Assembly: GCA_020747065.1 (NCBI GenBank)
Contig: JAGMVK010000014.1
Location: 62,001-126,000 of the forward strand
Direction: 5' to 3'
Origin: Cadophora sp. MPI-SDFR-AT-0126
Lineage: Eukaryota; Ascomycota; Leotiomycetes; Helotiales; Ploettnerulaceae
DNA: 64,000 nt
The notes beneath the pieces were generated by a model. It did not search any database. It worked only from the letters and a program-made list of their open reading frames with translations, and was not told the DNA's origin. The translations under genes were made by a program, and so were the position numbers. This document shows positions 2,180 to 49,067 of this stretch, in pieces (the stretch's first letter is position 1; each line of letters starts with the position of its first letter).

Positions 2180-5100
2180 ATGTCTGACCTATTCGTCAAA
2201 GAAGAGAACAGATGCTTACTACGCAGCCCTCGTCTGAGCAGCCAGATGGACGTCGACGAGAAGTTTCATCAAGGTTCTCATGTTTCTACCACACCATATT
2301 CCAGACCTGGTCAGAACTCTTTCGTGCAAAACCCAGAGTGGAGACAGCATAATGAGAATCATCTGAAGCGTGTTCTTACCAAGGAGAAGGCTGCTAAGGA
2401 CGGCGAAGAAGCTTTGAAAGCTCTGCTGAATGCCATGAAGGCTCATCTACTCTTGAATCCATCGTGTCAGTCCCGCATCAGCAGGATTAGTGGGTCCCCT
2501 TAAATCTCTTCCCAAGATATTGCTTCTTCCATCAAGGCTCGTGCGAAGACGTGTGTCTTTGCTAACACTTTTCATAGATACCGTTCTAAGTCGCAAGAAG
2601 ACTTTTAAAGTATTGGTCGGCTTCCTCGGTATCACAGGAGCCGGCAAGACAACTCTGATCAATGCCTTGATTGGATATCGAAATCTGCTCCCCTCATCTG
2701 CAGAACGTGCTTGCACAGCGGTCGTTGTTGAGATCGCATACAATCCAAGCAACGACAGCGACGCAGTGTTCAGATCGGACATAGTCTATATTACACGAGA
2801 TGAGTGGCGCGACGAGCTTGAGCGGTTCTTTGAAGACCTGGAAGCTCCAGTAGCTAGGGATGACGATCAAGATGAGGAGAGCGACATTGAACGCCGTGAG
2901 AGAATCAAGGAGACATTTGACAAGCTCAAATGTGTGTATCCGCACATCAAAAGCATGGATAAACTACGTTCATCATCAGTCGAAAAGCTCCTATTGGATC
3001 CCGCTGTCTGTAACCTGCTGGGGACCGTTGTCAAGGTGAAATGCGCAACGAAGATGCAGTTTTCCAAAATGATCAAGAGCCACATCGACAGTGGTGATAG
3101 TGATGGTACTTCAGCACAGTGGCCTCTAGTGAAGCTCGTTAGAGTCTTCGTCAAGTCCGAATTCTTGGAAAATGGCATCATCCTGGTTGACTTACCCGGA
3201 AATCTTGATAACAACTCTGCCAGATCAGCCATTGCCGAACACTACCAAAAGGAGCTCTCGGTCACATGCATATTGGCGGAAGCGAAGCGAGGTATTAGTG
3301 AGAAGAATGTGAGTTACCACGTGTGGCTTTTGATGCTAGAGTTAGCTGATATGGACCAGGCGCACGATTTGCTGGAAAAGGTTACGAAACGGAACTTGCA
3401 GCTGGATGGTCTCTACAATGCCGAGTCTTTGTGCTTTGTTCTCTCCCAGACAGATAGAGAGTTTGACATCATAGAATACTTGAACAGCCATCCGGCTCTG
3501 AAAGAGCATTGTGCTGCTGATCATCAGAAAGTCCTCGACTTAGTTATTAGCCTCAAGAATCGTCTGAAGGAAGAGGGAGCCGCCAAGTTAGTTGATTCTA
3601 CCAATCGAAAGCGTGTCAGAGAATTCTCAACCAGGTCCAAAGATCTGAAAGCCCAGCTAGGTATAGCTTCCAATGCATTACCTCCTCCTGGACGCAATGT
3701 GAAGCGTTCAGCTAGTGACATAGATTCAGGTAAGAATTTAGCCTGACATCTGTCAACCTGTCTGTACTGACATATCTCAGCCTCAAACGTCATCCAAGCA
3801 ACAGCTGAACAAATGGCATCTCGAAATGAGCTTGCGGAAGTACAGAAGCTCCTAAATGATGCAAGAAAGGCTTACCATGAAGGGGCGGAGGAGCTAGCAT
3901 CTCTCGGGCGCAGAGTCAGTCACATCCGAAAGGCTCTATTCCATGCCAGATCACGAATCAGAGTTGCGTGCATTCAGAATCGCAACAAGGCAGCTACAAC
4001 TGCGATCAGAAGAGACTATAATGAAACCCTGACCGAGATGGGTAGGGAATCTTCTGGTCCTCTGGAAGTTTTCTGCGTCGCCGCAACAGTTCATTTACAG
4101 TATCTAAGAATGGAACCCTCCTTCGTGCACCCAGGATTCCCGCATCGACCAGACACCCAAATTGGTAGACTCAGAGACTGGCTTGTCAGCACAACATTTC
4201 CTACTCGTGAATCGTATGCACAGGCATTTCTAGAGGATGTTGAAGCAACTCTGGATTCCATGATGCCTTGGATCGAGGACAAATACGCCGATCACAAGAT
4301 GCCCGTTGATATCCGAGAGCAGTGGGAGCCTCAAATGGATAGAGAGTTGAACGAGCTGCAAAATGTAAGTACCCTCCTTGAAAGTTTGCTTCTTTGCCAG
4401 AGAGAATTCTGACTCGAAGTAGCAGTTTTCCCAGCTCAAGTTGCGCGCCTCTGGAGGTTTCAAGCAACTAGTTCGGACAGGTCTCTACCCTAAGATGCCA
4501 GAGGCCGAGCAGGATGCTGTTTCCAGAGCCAAGGATGTCGTTGAAGGCTGGGCAAAGGGTCTGCATTGGAGCACCCACAGATCCATTAATCGAAACCATG
4601 GAGACTGGAAGGACTCTCGTAGGAGAGACCACAAGTGGAATGGACTACTGTAAGTCATGCCACAGGTCCTGTCGCTCTTCCATTGTCTGATCGCATATAG
4701 TGTCCACGAACTCACGACCCCTTTGGTTTCTTCCTGGGATAAGACTTTCACTCGAACGTTCCCCACCGAGCGTGATGCATATGTAGTTGACGGTCAAAAA
4801 CTCATCGCCGATTTCGCAGATAAAGTATCGGATGCCAACTTCTGCCCTGATGTAGCGAATGGCTTAGCAGTCCTCAAAGATCACATCATGAGAACCCAAA
4901 CGTTACTAAAAAGCCAAACCACAAATACGTTCGAGGGCGTCACTAAAGCTATCAGAAAAGCACATAAGACTGCTACCCCAGCCCTCAAGCAGTTTTTAAT
5001 TCCTATCTATGACAAATGCGCCTCAGAAGGAGGAGCTGGTCACTACGCGAGAAACAAAGCCCTCCACAAGAATACGATGAGAAACCGGGGCCTCCAAATG

Positions 5101-5484
5101 TATCAAACAGGCACCCTGGCCATCAGAAGTGCACTCGACAATATGTTGGAGAGTCTCTCGCCCAGTTTCGATGGAATTCACAAGGCGATACTTGACCAGA
5201 TCCGAGAAGATATCCAGCTGTTTTTCGAGCAAAATAGCACAAATGGCAGCAGAAGAAGTGCTCGGAGAGTTGAGTCTCCTTCGAAAATCAAGCTCCAGGA
5301 GGACCTCTTGGTTATCATCGATAATCTAGCACAGGCTTGGAAGTCGGAGGTTAATACGCAACCCAAGCAAGAGATTGATGATGAGGATGACGAGGAGACC
5401 ACCTTCGATGATGCAGAGTTCTTCGTCGTCGACAATAACGATGAACAGGATGAGGATTATGAGTACAAAAGCGATCAGGATTAA
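2180..5484 (+). CDS. Large dynamin-like GTPase, nuclear GTPase SLIP-GC-like
   Basis: A 992-residue P-loop GTPase resembling the SLIP-GC-type proteins common in filamentous fungi. My model has exons 2180-2465, 2578-3308, 3360-3729, 3781-4364, 4426-4649 and 4701-5484, which join in frame. The P-loop GITGAGKT lies at about residues 113-120, the G3 motif DLPG at about 300-303, and a degenerate G4-like SQTD near residue 360. The rest is charged and helical and ends in a very acidic tail (DDEDDEETTFDD). The 51-nt intron at 3309-3359 is a multiple of three without a stop; I call it from its GTGAGT donor, a CTGAT branch-like site and because its removal restores the family-like run EKN-AHDLLEKVTKRNLQLDG. 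The acceptor of exon 4 could be 3 nt earlier. GTPase membership is clear; the cellular role in fungi is not established. Confidence 0.85.
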
Positions 5485-23551: not shown

Positions 23552-24916
23552 ATGCATTTTCTCAACCTTTTGGTGGCGGTGACTGCTGTTTCAGCTGTTA
23601 CTCTTGCCCCCAGACAGGAGACTGCAAATGCGTTCGAGGAGATAGAGAATTTCACCCCAGAGGATGACATCGCAAGATTAGGTCTCGCTGGACTGGCGAA
23701 CCTGACTGAGTTTGAGGAGGCAGCTGTCAAGTTTAAGGCCAAGAGAGGTGGCTGCTCTTTGCTTAATGTCAGCATCAGAAGGGATTGGTACGGAGTCTTT
23801 TCCCTACACATAACCATGACAACAATGTACTGATCCGAACAAGGGCTCACATGTTCGCCTCAGAACGCAAGGCCTATATCAGTTCTGTTCAATGCTTGAT
23901 GGCCAAGCCCTCAAAAGTAGACCATACCCTCTACCCAGGTGCCAAATCTCGATTTGACGACTTCATTGTCGTTCACGCCAACTACAGTCGTTCGATCCAC
24001 GGCACGGGGAACTTCTTGACATGGCACAGATACTTCACTTTCGTCTATGAGCAAGCTTTGAAGAACGAGTGTGGATATAAAGGTGCTCAGCCAGTAAGCA
24101 TCTCGTCCAATGTCTTGATACATCGGTCACAATTGACATAATTAGTACTGGAATTGGGGTACATGGGCTCATGATCCAGCCAAGTCACCAGTCTTCGATG
24201 GCTCAGAAACCTCTCTGGGTAGTGACGGCTCTTTCGTCGCACACAATGGCTCTGTTGCAGGACGAGGAGCAATCTGGGTCCCATCCGGCAAAGGTGGTGG
24301 TTGCATGAAGTCTGGACCTTTCAAGAAGTACGCTTCTCGCGACCCCTCTATCATCCATATCTCCTAATCTAATCGCTAACAATTGTCCAGCATGGCCAAT
24401 AACATGGGTCCAATGCAGCCAACAATGGACGGCGTCGTCGCCAACCCAAACGGTTTCTACGCCTACAACCCACGCTGTCTCAAACGCGATATCTCACCCT
24501 ACGCATCCTCAACCTGGACCACAACACCCCAGATCATGACCCTGATCACCACCCGCGGCGTCAAAGCCTTCCAAGACAACATCAACGGCGACTTCGCTGC
24601 CGGCAATCTGGGCATCCACTCGGCAGGACATTACACAATTGGCGGCGACCCTGGTTCCGATTTCTATCAATCTCCTGGTGATCCAGTCTTCTACCTACAT
24701 CACGCCATGGTGGATCGCACGTACTGGATCCACCAGAATTTGAATTTGCCGGGCAGTCTGACGGATTTGGATGGTACGCTTACGGTCTTCAACAACCCGC
24801 CTTCTCGCGAGACTACGCTCGATGATCTGTTGGGTATGGGCCCTTTGGCGCCAGAGTTGAAGATCCGGGATGCGATGAGCTCGCTTGGTGGGCCGTTCTG
24901 CTATATCTATCTGTAG
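23552..24916 (+). CDS. Secreted tyrosinase (type-3 copper monooxygenase)
   Basis: A 397-residue tyrosinase-domain protein, likely secreted: the N-terminus MHFLNLLVAVTAVSAVTLAP is a signal peptide. Exons are 23552-23787, 23844-24093, 24146-24327 and 24391-24916. CuA histidines are at about H123, H131 and H140 (VHANYSRSIHGTGNFLTWHR). CuB histidines are about H299, H303 and the HH pair at 326-327 (GIHSAGHY and DPVFYLHHAMVDR), so the active site looks complete. The short form without a long C-terminal extension fits the fungal tyrosinase-like oxidases. Related enzymes hydroxylate or oxidise phenols and tyrosine residues; in some UstYa peptide clusters a tyrosinase acts on the peptide, but this gene is about 20 kb from the UstYa gene here. 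The substrate is unknown. Confidence 0.92.
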
Positions 24917-34427: not shown

Positions 34428-36490
34428 CTACGCCGTGAACGGAACCGCCGTCGCATATGCCTCGCGCCTCACCTTCCCCTTGAATTCAGATTGAGTAGGG
34501 GCAGTATCAGACATAGTACTCGTAGCCGTCTTGTAGTACCGCACCAGCGCATCCTCAGCACCCTCAGGATTATCATACGCCTTCAGATCTGCAAAGCCGG
34601 GCAAGACGACACTCATAGCATTATCCAGAGTCTGAAGTGATGCATCGTACTTCCTTGAAGTGAAGCGTGGATCCGTGGGATTGATGAATCGTGCGGTATT
34701 TTCGGGATAGTTGAAGTCTGGGAGGACGGAGACGTTGAACGCTGCCATCATGGCGTGGTCTTCGTGTACGAGGTTGTGGCAGTGGAACATCTGTACAGTG
34801 TTAATTCCGTCTTGGATATCAAAGATGGAGGAAGATGACTTACGTAAAGACCCTCCCATGGAGTATAGCGCGCAAGGACATAAACCTCTTCATTCTGGCC
34901 GAGAAGCACAACATCCTGTAACGCTGCAGCTTCGTAGCTCTGAACTCCACGAGAGCCTTTTTGTCTCGACACGACTTGGAAATCGACTAAGTGCACGTGA
35001 ATTGGATGGGACCATCCTCCACCGTTGTTGACGAGTTTCCAAAGCTCGACAGATCCGCGAGGTGGCCTGGCAAGGACTCGGTTGTTGACATTATCGAATG
35101 TGACGCCGTTGATCTTCCATTCGCCATTCCTTTGGCTTATGTCAACTGCTTGTCTAGTTTTTATGAAGGAATAACGACTCACTTATTTTCAAAGTTAAAG
35201 ATATGATCAGGCTTTGATAGATCTTTGGAAGGGGGGAGTGGAAGTGGTGCAAAAGACTCTGGCATTGGCCCGTTATTGGAATTGTCCGAGACTGACGTTC
35301 CGACATTGAATTTCATGACCTGGTTGGTATTGTTGTATGGTGTATCAGCCTGCACGTTGTAGAAATTCTTCATGTAGATCGACTTTCCGGCATACGGCGC
35401 GAAATCCACGACAATCTCCCATCTCTCTGCCATTGAAATCCAGAGATCGGGAGTTTGGACTGGCTTGGCTGTTCGACCACTGTCGGAACCGACGACGTAA
35501 AATGGGATGTGCTTTGATGTGTCATCTTCGAGAATTCTGAGGTCGGTGACAAAATAAAGGCGGAATGCGCGACTGATTGATACATCCAGCATGCGGAATC
35601 TGTATTTTCTGGGCTCAACATTGAGATATGGCCATGGTTGTCCGTTCCTGGGCGCCGGTTATCAAAAAACTCGATTTTGGCCAGGCAGATACTTACACAT
35701 GTATGATGTCTCCAAAGAGACTGACGCCGGGTTGTGTTGCGGGTGAGACGAGCTGGCCATTAGTTCCGTACTGTTTCGATGCGAGAGCCAACGGGATATC
35801 ATATTTGCCTTGTGGTAGTCCCGAAGCTTTCTCATCGTCGTCTGTGAGAAGGTAGAATCCCGCTTGGCCAAAATAGGCGTTCTCGGCAGTGTGGTCGATG
35901 GCATGGTCATGGTACCAGAGAGTTCGTGATCGCTGGGCATTGGGGTAATAATAGTCTTTGTAGTAACCGACAGGAATTGTGTCTTCAGCCCAGCCGTCCC
36001 ATGGTGGATGCGCTATGGTTGATCTCAGTCAAGCAGTGGGAAGAGTAAGAAGGATTCTGACTTACTGATTGAACCGTGCAGGTGGGTGGTGGTTGCCTTG
36101 TCGTTTCCTTCATTGATAAACCGCACCACTGCCTCAGTCCCGAAAGTCATATGGAATGTAGGACCAGGCGAATAACCATTGTACCCTACGAGTTTGGTTG
36201 GTGGAAGCTCTGGATAGACTTGTTGAGTGAAACCCTTGATGCGGATTTCATAGTAGTCGATCTTTGCACCGTTTGATTTAGTGTAAGTCCTGATCATCGA
36301 GTAAGTCCCTCGCTTCGACTATTAGGATCAGGACTTCAACTTACGCGAGTGGAGTGGCGATTGGCGGCAGAGGTAGCGGAAACTCGTAAAAGTGTTTGTA
36401 TGCTGGACTAGGGCCAACTCCAGCAGCAGAAGTTAGACCAAGTAACAGCAATGATACAAAGCTTGCATCAAGCGGTCTTGGGGTCAACAT
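34428..36490 (-). CDS. Multicopper oxidase, bilirubin oxidase/laccase-like
   Basis: A 599-residue secreted multicopper oxidase; the N-terminus (DASFVSLLLLGLTSAAGVG) is a signal peptide. Six exons: 36490-36345, 36289-36066, 36012-35697, 35647-35183, 35129-34844 and 34790-34428, all in frame. The four copper motifs are present: HLHG near residue 119, WYHDHA at 156-161, HPIHVH at 425-430 and HCHNLVHEDHAMM at 482-494. The type-1 site has C483, H488 and an axial Met at M493. The axial Met and overall layout resemble fungal bilirubin-oxidase/CotA-like enzymes more than classical Leu/Phe laccases. It probably oxidises phenolic or tetrapyrrole-like substrates with reduction of oxygen to water. No direct genetic link to neighbours is visible. 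Confidence 0.92.
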
Positions 36491-45175: not shown

Positions 45176-46180
45176 TCACGGTCTGAAAGGGTTCCATAAG
45201 CAGGTCCTATCAGAATCAGTGATGGTTTCCCCACAAGAAATCAAGTGAGATTTCGTACCAAACTTCGGATGAACAACAAGTCCAGGCTGGAACACATCTA
45301 CGAATCTTTCCTTGTTCCATTCTTCCAGAGCTTCCCATGAGCGACAAGTATGTGGCGTAGACCAGTTCGCCGATGGGACTGGTTGTTTTGTGCCCCATTT
45401 GAAGGTGATGAGAGAAGTGTCACCATGACACATGATGGCTTGTCGAAGGGTATCCAGACAGTGAACTGTTTGAAGTCAGTATTGGTATCCACAATTTCAA
45501 TAGAATATTGGCGTCACAATTGTGAGCGCGGAGAAGGAAAAGCTCCTCGGCTGTTGCGTTTGGCCAATAATGTTCAACGTTGAGAAACTTATGAATTCTT
45601 TTCTGTCGAAGTGTCAGTCTGAAGCTTTAAAGCAGTGAAACATCCTACAATGCAGTGAAGATGATGGAAAACGGTCATTTGACCAAAGTAGCCTGAGCCA
45701 TCTGTGAAACGGACCGAATTCTCCATCCGATCAAGCCGTCTGATTTCACTTTCAGGAACTCGAATGTTTGCATCTTCGTGATCTGTCAATCACTGACGTC
45801 ATTTTTTATTGTGGACCTTACTTACATCGCATAAGTTTGTGCCATGCTGCCTCCAATTCATCACTCGGTGCTCCAGTATAAATTCGCGCGGTAGATTTGT
45901 TGAGGTGCGGGTTTACCTCGAACACTTTCTGCACATATGGGATCCCTAGTGAATCGTTGTTCGTGTTGCGCTGGAACGATAGAATATAGATTGCTGTGTA
46001 CGTAAGAATGAGAAGAATATGCAGAATCCAAGGGAGCAGTCTCTGGGCTTTCGATATTGACGACCGGATCTCTGGCCCCAATGCAGTACCAGTCTCACTG
46101 TCTGAGGTAGACAACGGAGTGTAGGAAGAAGCTTTCCATACGACTTTGTCGACTTTGTTTTGGCTTCCAAAAGGCGCCAT
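45176..46180 (-). CDS. UstYa-family (DUF3328) oxidase-like protein
   Basis: A 287-residue UstYa/DUF3328 protein, the family whose members carry out oxidative cyclisation or hydroxylation/chlorination steps in fungal ribosomal peptide (dikaritin) and some other cyclic-peptide pathways. Exons are 46180-45826, 45782-45649, 45602-45518 and 45465-45176, all joining in frame. A single transmembrane helix (about 48-68) follows a short cytoplasmic N-terminus. Both family HxxHC motifs are present: HHLHC at 158-162 and HNFHC at 190-194, the latter assembled across an intron. The stretch EHYWPNATAEELFLLRAH and the following RQAIMCHGDTSLITFKW match the family. It is divergent from the repeat precursor gene at 47485. 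Start is the first ATG in frame; the frame runs on upstream without another ATG. Confidence 0.93.
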
Positions 46181-47484
46181 GTTGGGATTGCGTAGGAGAA
46201 AATGAAGGATTGAGAAGTGAATGAGCAAGTTGGGGATTTGAGAAGTCTCAACTTTGCACCGGAAAAGAAAACCGTTTCGTGCCTGCTTATGTTTCCGATT
46301 CCAATTGCCGTTCTTTTGAATCCTTCGGAGTGTCCGAAGGAAGCTGAAGAAAATTAATGATGCACTCCTGATGTGTGAGTTTCACCAGATTTTGCTATTC
46401 AGCCTATGATTCCTATACGTGCTTGGCGAATATATTGTGCATTCGGCACTCGTCGTACATTCTGACATCCCTGGGGCGTCAGTCAAGTGCAGATTCTGTC
46501 GCTTAGCTGGGCTGCTTACTTGCACAGATCGAGAAATCCTCAGCTTTACGCTTTATCCCGATTTAAGCTTCTGTCACACTGGAGGTACGACTGAGTTCTT
46601 ACCTGCAGGACTAAGCGACGGAGGCAATGTTACGCAGAACGACAAGCGAGGGCTGGAAAATACCCACTTAGGAAGGTCGAGTTCACCCGGCAAGATATTA
46701 ATGGTACACTGCCCGTGTCACCGGAGAACATTGTGGAGAGGAGGACGCGTCCGGACTGAAAGTGATGACTGCATGAGTTAATCTATCTGGAGGATACTGC
46801 GGATGCGGTACCAAGCTCGACTACCCAAACAAACACTAAATCTCGCGAGTCCGTGAATCTCTTGGAACATCACGATATGAAAACTTGATGAACACGTTGT
46901 ATCTCCTTCCTGTACTAGCAGACTCCAAGACATAGATTAGTCTAAACCATGCATGTTGAAAGTACCCGAATGACTGCAGAAGACGGTCTCCACATCGCTC
47001 CCTGCATGGACAAAATCCGTTTTTAGAAACCAAGACCAGTATTTCAGTGTTCACGTTTGTGTATGACTTCGAAAACTGAATACGAAATAACCGTCGGTGA
47101 GATACTCCTCTTCGATCGATCACATGTAGAAGCTGAGAAAGCTTTCTTACTTTTCGGCTCACCGCGTGATCATTTGTAGCTGGATTTTGAATGCCCGTCG
47201 GCCAGATATCCTTGTTATATTGATGTAGTGAAGAAATTTATGGTAAAAATGATGTGAAAGCAGAAGAAGATGACGGTCTTGGTATGATTCAGCTCGAAAA
47301 GTGGCAAAAAATGGTGAAAGCGAGGATAGCATGTCAAGTATAAGAAGCAGTAGTTTCCCCCCTCTTCCATTTGCTCATCATCAACAAGCACTCATCAGAA
47401 CAACACTACAACAACTCCAAACAAATCTTTTTCAAGATTTAGATCAAAACTTCGTCTCAGGTTCCTACCATCTAAACCATCAAA
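46181..47484. promoter_or_regulatory. Shared upstream region of UstYa-like and precursor genes
   Basis: 1.3 kb between divergent start codons. It holds a perfect palindrome at 46321-46341 (listed separately). The last 100 bases before the precursor ATG are CA/CT-rich (ACAACACTACAACAACTCC), a typical strong fungal leader. Open frames within are not protein-like. Confidence 0.5.
46321..46341. promoter_or_regulatory. Perfect 9-3-9 palindrome with CGG-N5-CCG core
   Basis: Arms TCCTTCGGA and TCCGAAGGA around a GTG spacer form a perfect inverted repeat 141 bp upstream of the UstYa-like start codon. The inner CGG and CCG separated by five bases are the pattern bound by Zn2Cys6 dimers. Function is inferred from sequence and position only. 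Confidence 0.5.
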
Positions 47485-48117
47485 ATGCAATTCTCCACCT
47501 CCACCATCATTGCTTTCTTGCCATTTATGGCCATCCTCGCAGTCGCTGCACCATTGACGCGTGAGTTCAAACATGTGTTGATTATTTTACTTGTGTCTTA
47601 AGCTCACAACTAACAGCTTCAACCGTAGCACTCGCAGCTCGATCAGACATTCCAGAGCAGTGCCACTTTGTGAACGGCGATGCTTCATCCCGCGCCATGG
47701 TCTGCGAGTACGCAACTGCGCCAGTCTTTGATTCCAACTTTCCCGGTGCTTGTAAGTAAATCTGGCACTAGTCGTTTTCTCTCTCTCACTCCTTCCAAGT
47801 GACTCCGAGAGGAGTTTTAACTTCCGAATGCTAACCTGCTGCTCTCCACAGGCGTTACCAATGCTGCAGGTGACATTACCTGCACCCTCCCTGAGGGATC
47901 CAAGGACATCAGCATCAACAAGCCCCTTGCTGCTCGTGCCGTTGATGCCGAGGCATACAGACTTGTGATCTCCTGGAAGCGTGATGAGACTTCCGTGATG
48001 GAGCGCGCGGTTGAACAAGAGGCTTACAGGCTCACCATCTCGTGGAAGCGGGATGAGGCCGCTGTCATGGCACGTGCCGTCGAGCAGGAGGCTTATAGAT
48101 TGACCATCTCCTGGTAG
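47485..48117 (+). CDS. Secreted Kex2-type repeat precursor peptide, UstA-like
   Basis: A 158-residue small secreted protein that looks like a ribosomal peptide precursor. Exons 47485-47560, 47617-47751 and 47852-48117 join in frame. The N-terminus (QFSTSTIIAFLPFMAILAVA) is a signal peptide. The middle part has four cysteines (41, 55, 71, 81). The C-terminus carries three tandem 23-residue units starting at A100, A123 and A146; the third ends after 13 residues at the stop codon. Each unit has EAYRL-V/T-ISW, and the first two are followed by KRDE, a Kex2 (KR) site. Single-Arg sites (AAR, MER, MAR) precede each unit. Codons differ between copies while the peptide is kept, so the peptide is under selection. 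It is divergent from a UstYa-like gene. The product of the pathway is not known to me. Confidence 0.85.
47938..48114 (+). repeat. Three in-frame 69-bp repeats of the precursor
   Basis: Units at 47938-48006, 48007-48075 and 48076-48114 (last truncated by the stop codon). Tyr, Arg, Leu and Ser codons vary among copies, but the core residues are the same except Val or Thr at the fifth position of AYRLxISW. Confidence 0.9.
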
Positions 48118-49067
48118 ATGTACTTTACGGATGGTCAAGTCTCGGGAAGGATTGGTGGCGGGTTTTCTTTGGCATTTCTTTCACTTGAGGATGCGAGCGA
48201 TGATGAATTGGCGAGAAAGAGATTTTGGTAAGGAGGAGCTGCAGGAGAGTATGGGAGTCTTGACCAGATGCCGAGTTATTCTGGAAAGATTTCATTTGTG
48301 AGTTGAATGCAGAGCTATTTTTTCAATACTTCTGACTTGAACGTGAGCATTGTTGTTTTTGTTCTAGATCGGGACTACCGATGCAGCCGCTAGCCTAGCT
48401 GCTGAAGTCTCAGTAGCTCTTCCCCCCATGCCCTACTTCATCCAATACAAGCTCCTATTCTCAATTCTTGTTACAGCTTTTCATATTGCACTGGTCATAT
48501 TCACACGTGCTCAAGCCAGTGATGATGGCGTCAAAAGTTGAGCCGTACGAGGCGTTTGACCAAACGCTGCATCCTGTTCAACATACTTCCCCGAGCCAGC
48601 AGCCAGTGAGAAATGATGATAGCGCCTAGTGAAAATCGATCACAAGCGCCCAGTGAGAAACGGAGACAGAGCCTGCCAATGAGAAGTGAAATGACGACAG
48701 GACAGTGAGAAATGGAGAGGAGTTGAGCGACAGTGAAGAGGGCAAAGACTACAAATACTGGGTGAGAAATGAACAAGATAGAGATTCGTGAGACATCAAG
48801 AATCGGTGACAGAGGGAGACTGAGCGGCACTATACATAGTAGCGATGCGCCTTGACTGCGGCCTAGCAGACCTAGGAGACAAGGTCGACACGTTGGCTGA
48901 CCGTGGCTATGAGCTGAGCAGGGGAATGACGAGCGAAGAGAATAGTCGCACAGTCAAGTGATCCTTGACTTGGCCTAATGAGATCGCCGCAACAGGAACA
49001 CGTATGATGGCGATCATGTATACATATGTTAGAATTTTGGCAGTATGCTCTATCGGTCCCTGCTAAT
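48118..49067. other. Intergenic region downstream of the precursor gene
   Basis: 950 bp holding the 3' flanks of two convergent genes. Between about 48590 and 48775 a short motif close to CAGTGAGAAATG recurs five or six times in degraded form. No gene is supportable. Confidence 0.5.
48600..48775. repeat. Degenerate CAGTGAGAAATG-type short repeats
   Basis: The motif AGTGAGAAATG or close variants (AGTGAGAAACG, AATGAGAAGTG, GGTGAGAAATG) appears at irregular spacing of about 30-60 bp. It is too irregular for a CRISPR array and not open as protein. Confidence 0.5.

Follow-up and report, generated by a model that had tools for sequence, protein, structure and literature searches.

Genes at the locus

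In the window analysed here, a stretch of 64,000 nucleotides from a genome of 54 Mb in 38 contigs, gene models placed a precursor gene on the forward strand next to a UstYa-family (DUF3328) gene on the reverse strand, the two being divergent with start codons 1.3 kb apart (Table 1). The sequence between them likely constitutes a divergent promoter region common to both genes, as judged from the gene models, and the open reading frames within it (46410–46778, forward; 46839–47237, reverse) had no Pfam match. Directly downstream of the precursor gene lies a short open reading frame with a membrane-type stretch (48429–48542, forward), which may be due to chance.

The Pfam scan of the window comprised 69 open frames, namely 67 of the 144 frames of at least 100 aa and two shorter ones. 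It took in all 44 frames of at least 100 aa starting between 38 and 57 kb, with small exons mostly outside its scope. No match to a tyrosinase, methyltransferase or peptidase was obtained among these 44 frames, and the whole-genome PF11807 search gave no second match in the window, in agreement with the original prediction of a single UstYa copy with neither a methyltransferase nor a dedicated peptidase. The dynamin-like GTPase and DUF7605 frames near the start of the window perhaps represent one large gene of unassigned role.

Table 1. Features of the precursor/UstYa locus, of its surroundings in the window and of other precursor-bearing sites in the genome. Positions are those of the window unless a contig (C) or locus (L) is given.
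Feature	Position	Strand	Remarks
Dynamin-like GTPase frame, then DUF7605 frame	2457–5481	+	
Sterol-type methyltransferase frame	7.8–8.4 kb		Pfam
Tyrosinase gene (PF00264)	23767–24913	+	about 20 kb from the pair
Multicopper oxidase gene	34434–35182	−	Cu-oxidase_2 match in two frames
Sugar transporter	about 39.2–40.9 kb		sole transporter among the 38–57 kb frames
Sde182-like nucleoside-hydrolase-type protein	41.97–43.79 kb		Pfam
UstYa-family (DUF3328) gene	45176–46180	−	four exons; 287 aa; no internal stop
UstYa gene exons	46180–45826, 45782–45649, 45602–45518, 45465–45176	−	GT-AG introns
Inter-gene stretch	46181–47484		1.3 kb, start codon to start codon
Precursor gene	47485–48117	+	three exons; 154 aa; stop TAG 48115–48117
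Precursor exons	47485–47560, 47629–47751, 47852–48117	+	gene model with GT-AG introns
Precursor exon 1	47485–47560	+	signal peptide MQFSTSTIIAFLPFMAILAVAA-APLT, cut site by eye
Precursor pro-region, four cysteines (QCHF, VCEY, GACV, TCTL)	47629–47952	+	interrupted by intron 47752–47851
Repeat 1	47953–47982	+	AYRLVISW, then KR
Repeat 2	48022–48051	+	AYRLTISW, then KR
Repeat 3	48091–48117	+	AYRLTISW, then stop codon
GFO/IDH/MocA oxidoreductase frames	50.1–50.3 and 51.1–52.2 kb		Pfam
Zn2Cys6 regulator	54.9–56.7 kb		Pfam
Precursor 2, core NAYGIAHTLKM	C7:805.8–806.2 kb; L059:422–664, L010:3482–3715	+	three units; signal-type start
Precursor-like frame, ALGNYYE-type units	C33:975.7–976.2 kb; L058:208–735	−	KR sites; signal-type start
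UstA/PhomA-like frame, EDYVGG units	C5:1076.0–1076.5 kb; L021:413–661	+	signal-type start upstream

Precursor and core peptide

The N-terminus of the precursor forms a hydrophobic signal-type stretch, as judged by eye. An alternative acceptor for exon 2 at 47617 would add four residues after residue 26 and give a protein of 158 aa; the acceptor at 47629 was preferred because a CTAAC lies, by eye, approximately 15 bases before its AG. A Pfam search with the 158-aa version returned no match up to an E value of 1, and comparison of the precursor with the whole 54-Mb genome returned none besides itself. A four-cysteine pro-region is not mentioned in the passages of the dikaritin literature consulted here.

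The tail of the precursor reads AYRLVISW-KR-DETSVMERAVEQE, AYRLTISW-KR-DEAAVMARAVEQE and AYRLTISW-stop, with repeat starts spaced by exactly 69 bases. The secreted precursor with three C-terminal repeats that had been predicted from the sequence was recovered in the gene model; of its KR sites, those after repeats 1 and 2 stood, whereas repeat 3 runs directly into the stop codon. A stretch related to the inter-core spacer (LAARAVDAE) precedes the first copy as well, so that the repeated unit takes in the acidic residues ahead of the core.

When the last open frame was shuffled 2000 times, no shuffle contained an 8-mer in three copies matching at 7/8 identity. Between repeat units 1 and 2, 20 of the 69 bases are changed, affecting 11 codons synonymously and 4 non-synonymously, and none of 20,000 simulations with 20 randomly placed changes was as synonymous (mean 2.5 synonymous codons). 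When only the eight codons of the core were compared, the three pairs of copies showed 4, 3 and 4 synonymous vs. 1, 1 and 0 non-synonymous differences, the sole amino-acid change among the cores being from Val to Thr, both beta-branched. Since units 1 and 2 differ mostly silently, selection has preserved the peptide itself.

The core had been described as unfamiliar, and a search of the body text of 5.39 million open-access papers found no record of AYRLTISW, AYRLVISW, YRLTISW or YRLVISW; an unnamed homologue may already be present in a survey list. In the whole genome, a degenerate 21-base core pattern occurred at six places (reversed control, none), namely the three repeats and three single places. 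The latter were rejected as precursors, being in frames with nearby stops or without a repeat. A much looser core pattern, with 1,960 matches vs. 2,704 in the control, was uninformative.

UstYa-family enzyme

The 287-aa protein matched PF11807 with an E value of 2.4e-47 and a score of 162.1 bits (cut-off 25), covering profile positions 17–220 of 220, and has a hydrophobic, membrane-type helix at its N-terminus (by eye). Both motifs of HxxHC(x)nHxxHC are present, as HHLHC in exon 2 and HNFHC at the junction of exons 3 and 4, which bears out the earlier identification of a divergent UstYa-family gene carrying the two motifs. HNFHC arises solely on splicing of exons 3 and 4, and its presence speaks for the correctness of the gene model. 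A C20 paralogue, aligned at both motifs, showed 29% identity over 164 positions, and the best-scoring match outside the locus (C33:977.6 kb) showed 41% identity within one exon. Searching the sequences of solved structures gave no match up to an E value of 1. For CctR, a member of the UstYa family, published work describes a binuclear copper centre formed by the HxxHC pair, loss of activity on mutation of the motif, copper-dependent oxidase activity and a model with the C-terminal domain in the organelle lumen (PMC12435403).

Other UstYa sites in the genome

The whole-genome search with PF11807 gave 46 exon matches, 45 of them above the cut-off, which grouped into about 26 sites. Of these, 22 were examined for precursors with 1.5 kb of flank (30 loci, L009–L038), and four, the window included, held a Kex2-repeat precursor, each with a different core. 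At least three further Kex2-repeat precursors thus adjoin UstYa genes in the same genome (Table 1). The NAYGIAHTLKM precursor is divergent from a UstYa match on the opposite strand (C7:803940–804656). This pair (C7:803.9–806.2 kb) resembles the one in the window in having the UstYa gene on the reverse and the precursor on the forward strand, an intron right after the signal peptide (by eye) and three KR-separated repeats; it differs in lacking a cysteine-containing pro-region, and its core is unrelated to AYRL[V/T]ISW. Several UstYa matches lie beside the ALGNYYE-type frame, as does a tyrosinase match at C33:981.5 kb. The EDYVGG frame adjoins a UstYa match and tyrosinase matches and has an in-frame stop inside its first repeat. 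The core strings of these three sites were likewise absent from open-access paper text.

The 19 loci selected on grounds other than UstYa (L001–L008, L050, L054, L055, L060–L067; 58 kb) showed no Kex2-repeat precursor, and the comparison of three of 21 other UstYa sites with none of these 19 loci is suggestive only. At least four UstYa genes lie within about 10 kb at C20:134–146.5 kb (L056, L057), where repeat scans showed no Kex2-repeat precursor. Two sets of repeats were discarded: a 48-base tandem repeat on C36 (L017), which was open in three frames on both strands and was interpreted as simple DNA repetition rather than a precursor, and the internal repeats in L004, L007, L061 and L062, which were considered domain repeats or of low complexity. 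The L062 frame was secreted-looking and had a single KR. A Kex2-like protease gene was located at C37:766 kb (P-domain match; subtilisin part by eye).

Class assignment and alternative interpretations

The precursor/UstYa pair very probably represents a minimal ustiloxin-type RiPP (dikaritin, ust-RiPS) locus. The original assignment of the pair to the UstA/UstYa type is supported by the gene models, the Pfam match, the repeat selection test and published surveys, and the same pairing recurs at three other sites in the genome. The precursor has an N-terminal signal peptide (by eye) and KR (Kex2) sites separating repeated cores, and its divergent neighbour is a DUF3328 gene, reported as encoding the class-defining enzyme of ust-RiPS (PMC12048977). 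An early five-gene definition listed several DUF3328 genes, a tyrosinase, a methyltransferase, a peptidase or a transporter in the cluster, and later reports described clusters that function without some of them (PMC12048977); the pair described here does not present that set. A minimal unit has a precedent, since the asperipin-2a cluster also has a single UstYa-type enzyme. Nearness to a UstYa gene alone is no proof, because such genes are numerous in this genome and members of the family act on non-ribosomal peptides, as CctR does on cyclochlorotine (PMC12435403). We regard the locus as a real and probably functional ustiloxin-type unit of the minimal, asperipin-like kind.

A survey of 1,461 fungal strains reported 7,878 Kex2-processed repeat proteins; for 1,758 of them (22%), the nearest 15 genes included one of the DUF3328 family. 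The proteins were grouped into 838 types and 2,560 that stood alone (PMC7329392). DUF3328 counts were highest at the gene next to the repeat precursors, and 65.6% of the repeats that had a DUF3328 neighbour contained Tyr vs. 38.2% of those without (PMC7329392). The high novelty first attributed to such a system is not supported in view of these 1,758 precursors with a nearby DUF3328 gene and their highly diverse repeats (PMC7329392).

It is improbable that the repeat protein is processed by Kex2 to linear, unmodified signalling peptides of a pheromone-like kind, with the UstYa gene a coincidental neighbour. A C-terminal Trp, as in the core here, also occurs in fungal alpha-pheromones, whose core is of the type W-C-x3-G-x2-C-W; AYRL[V/T]ISW is devoid of cysteine and does not show this pattern. 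In the genome, the pattern gave six matches vs. four in the reversed control, none of them repeated and KR-flanked, so that the alpha-pheromone of this genome was not located. The precursor gene adjoins an intact, divergent UstYa gene. In favour of linear peptides, 6,120 of the 7,878 repeat proteins in the survey were without a DUF3328 gene within the nearest 15 genes; against them, a nearby DUF3328 gene was missing in 98.6% of its putative fungal pheromones and 100% of its yeast alpha-factors (PMC7329392).

We likewise consider it unlikely that the pair belongs to a larger cluster with the tyrosinase and the multicopper oxidase, although tyrosinase and Cu-oxidase domains do occur inside the window and the tyrosinase is 7 genes away from the precursor in the ustiloxin cluster and 8 in the phomopsin cluster (PMC7329392). 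Frames with kinase, response-regulator, sugar-transporter and Sde182-like domains intervene, and the tyrosinase is about 20 kb away, compared to about 0.5–6 kb between tyrosinase and UstYa matches at four other sites (C33:981, C5:1074, C12:970 and C7:1007 kb). With 43 tyrosinase exon matches in the genome, a tyrosinase within 20 kb is weak evidence. Finally, it is highly improbable that the four-cysteine pro-region is the functional product (e.g., a small effector) and the tail a mere processed appendage: the 154-aa protein is of secreted type with four cysteines, and precursors of dikaritins are reported to be frequently taken for ordinary secreted proteins, so that both look alike (PMC9632046), but the protein sequence of the tail units was kept though their DNA diverged, KR sites separate these units and the UstYa gene is adjacent.

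Proposed biosynthesis and significance

For the precursor/UstYa pair as a minimal dikaritin-type unit, we infer the cleavage, the action of the enzyme on AYRL[V/T]ISW, which bond it makes and what the product does. The precursor would enter the secretory pathway, where Kex2 would cut after each KR to release fragments ending in AYRL[V/T]ISW, with KR being removed by Kex1-type trimming and the acidic stretch before the core being taken off by further peptidases. The UstYa-type copper enzyme, presumably membrane-anchored and facing the lumen, would then oxidise the core, most likely by linking the side chain of Tyr with that of a nearby residue, namely Leu, the beta-branched Val/Thr, Ile or the C-terminal Trp. 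Published precedents are the Tyr-Ile bond of ustiloxins and phomopsins, the ethers between Tyr side chains and beta-carbons of asperipin-2a, and the Phe-Leu bond of victorin (PMC7329392, PMC6514808, PMC9233826). A more tentative idea, which we regard as possible but doubtful, is that the single UstYa-type enzyme gives a cationic octapeptide a crosslink topology unseen in ustiloxins, phomopsins, asperipin-2a, victorin and epichloecyclins (e.g., Tyr to Val/Thr or to the C-terminal Trp), with the four-cysteine pro-region folding as a leader domain that presents the cores.

Since transfer into a laboratory host would involve no more than one precursor and one enzyme, the two-gene unit is a small and convenient system for asking how a DUF3328 copper enzyme acting alone selects its crosslink. 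One position of the core varies naturally between Val and Thr, which provides a built-in probe of the linked residue, and the four precursor/UstYa pairings in one genome provide related enzymes with different cores for comparison of specificity.

Comparison with known systems

Several such systems in one fungus have been reported before, with nine dikaritin-type clusters in Venturia inaequalis (PMC9632046). The locus shares with the ustiloxin and phomopsin systems (UstA/UstYa/UstYb/UstQ; PhomA, PhomQ) a signal peptide, KR-separated repeats and a DUF3328 oxidase (PMC7329392). Acidic residues precede the core in the EDYXI motif of the ustiloxin type (PMC6339444) and as VEQE/VDAE here. The ustiloxin/phomopsin core is Y-x-I-x, whereas Y-R-L-[V/T]-I lacks the Y-x-I spacing. 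Those clusters were reported with two and five DUF3328 genes, respectively, a tyrosinase, which both pathways also need, and more tailoring genes (PMC7329392), none of which is adjacent to the pair. The multicore, likely Kex2-processed precursor resembles GigA of the epichloecyclins, whose longer core has Tyr at an internal position and a bond between Tyr and Ile (PMC9233826); in a comparison that left the pro-regions aside, epichloecyclins are nonapeptides with Lys methylation (PMC6514808, PMC9233826), whereas the core found here is an octapeptide with Arg.

A close parallel in layout is the asperipin-2a cluster of Aspergillus flavus (aprA/aprY/aprT/aprR), with a repeat precursor and one DUF3328 gene (PMC7329392) and, as reported, neither a tyrosinase nor a methyltransferase in its four-gene set. 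There, aprY was essential in heterologous expression and was proposed to act in sequential oxidative macrocyclisation (PMC6514808). Aspergillus oryzae served as the host for asperipin-2a. The asperipin-2a core, FYYTGY, contains three Tyr and yields a bicyclic product, in contrast to AYRL[V/T]ISW with its one Tyr, and near the pair only a sugar-type transporter and no reductase of the asperipin kind was recognised. The core AYRL[V/T]ISW looks undescribed, and the pair otherwise looks like a member of the known dikaritin family.
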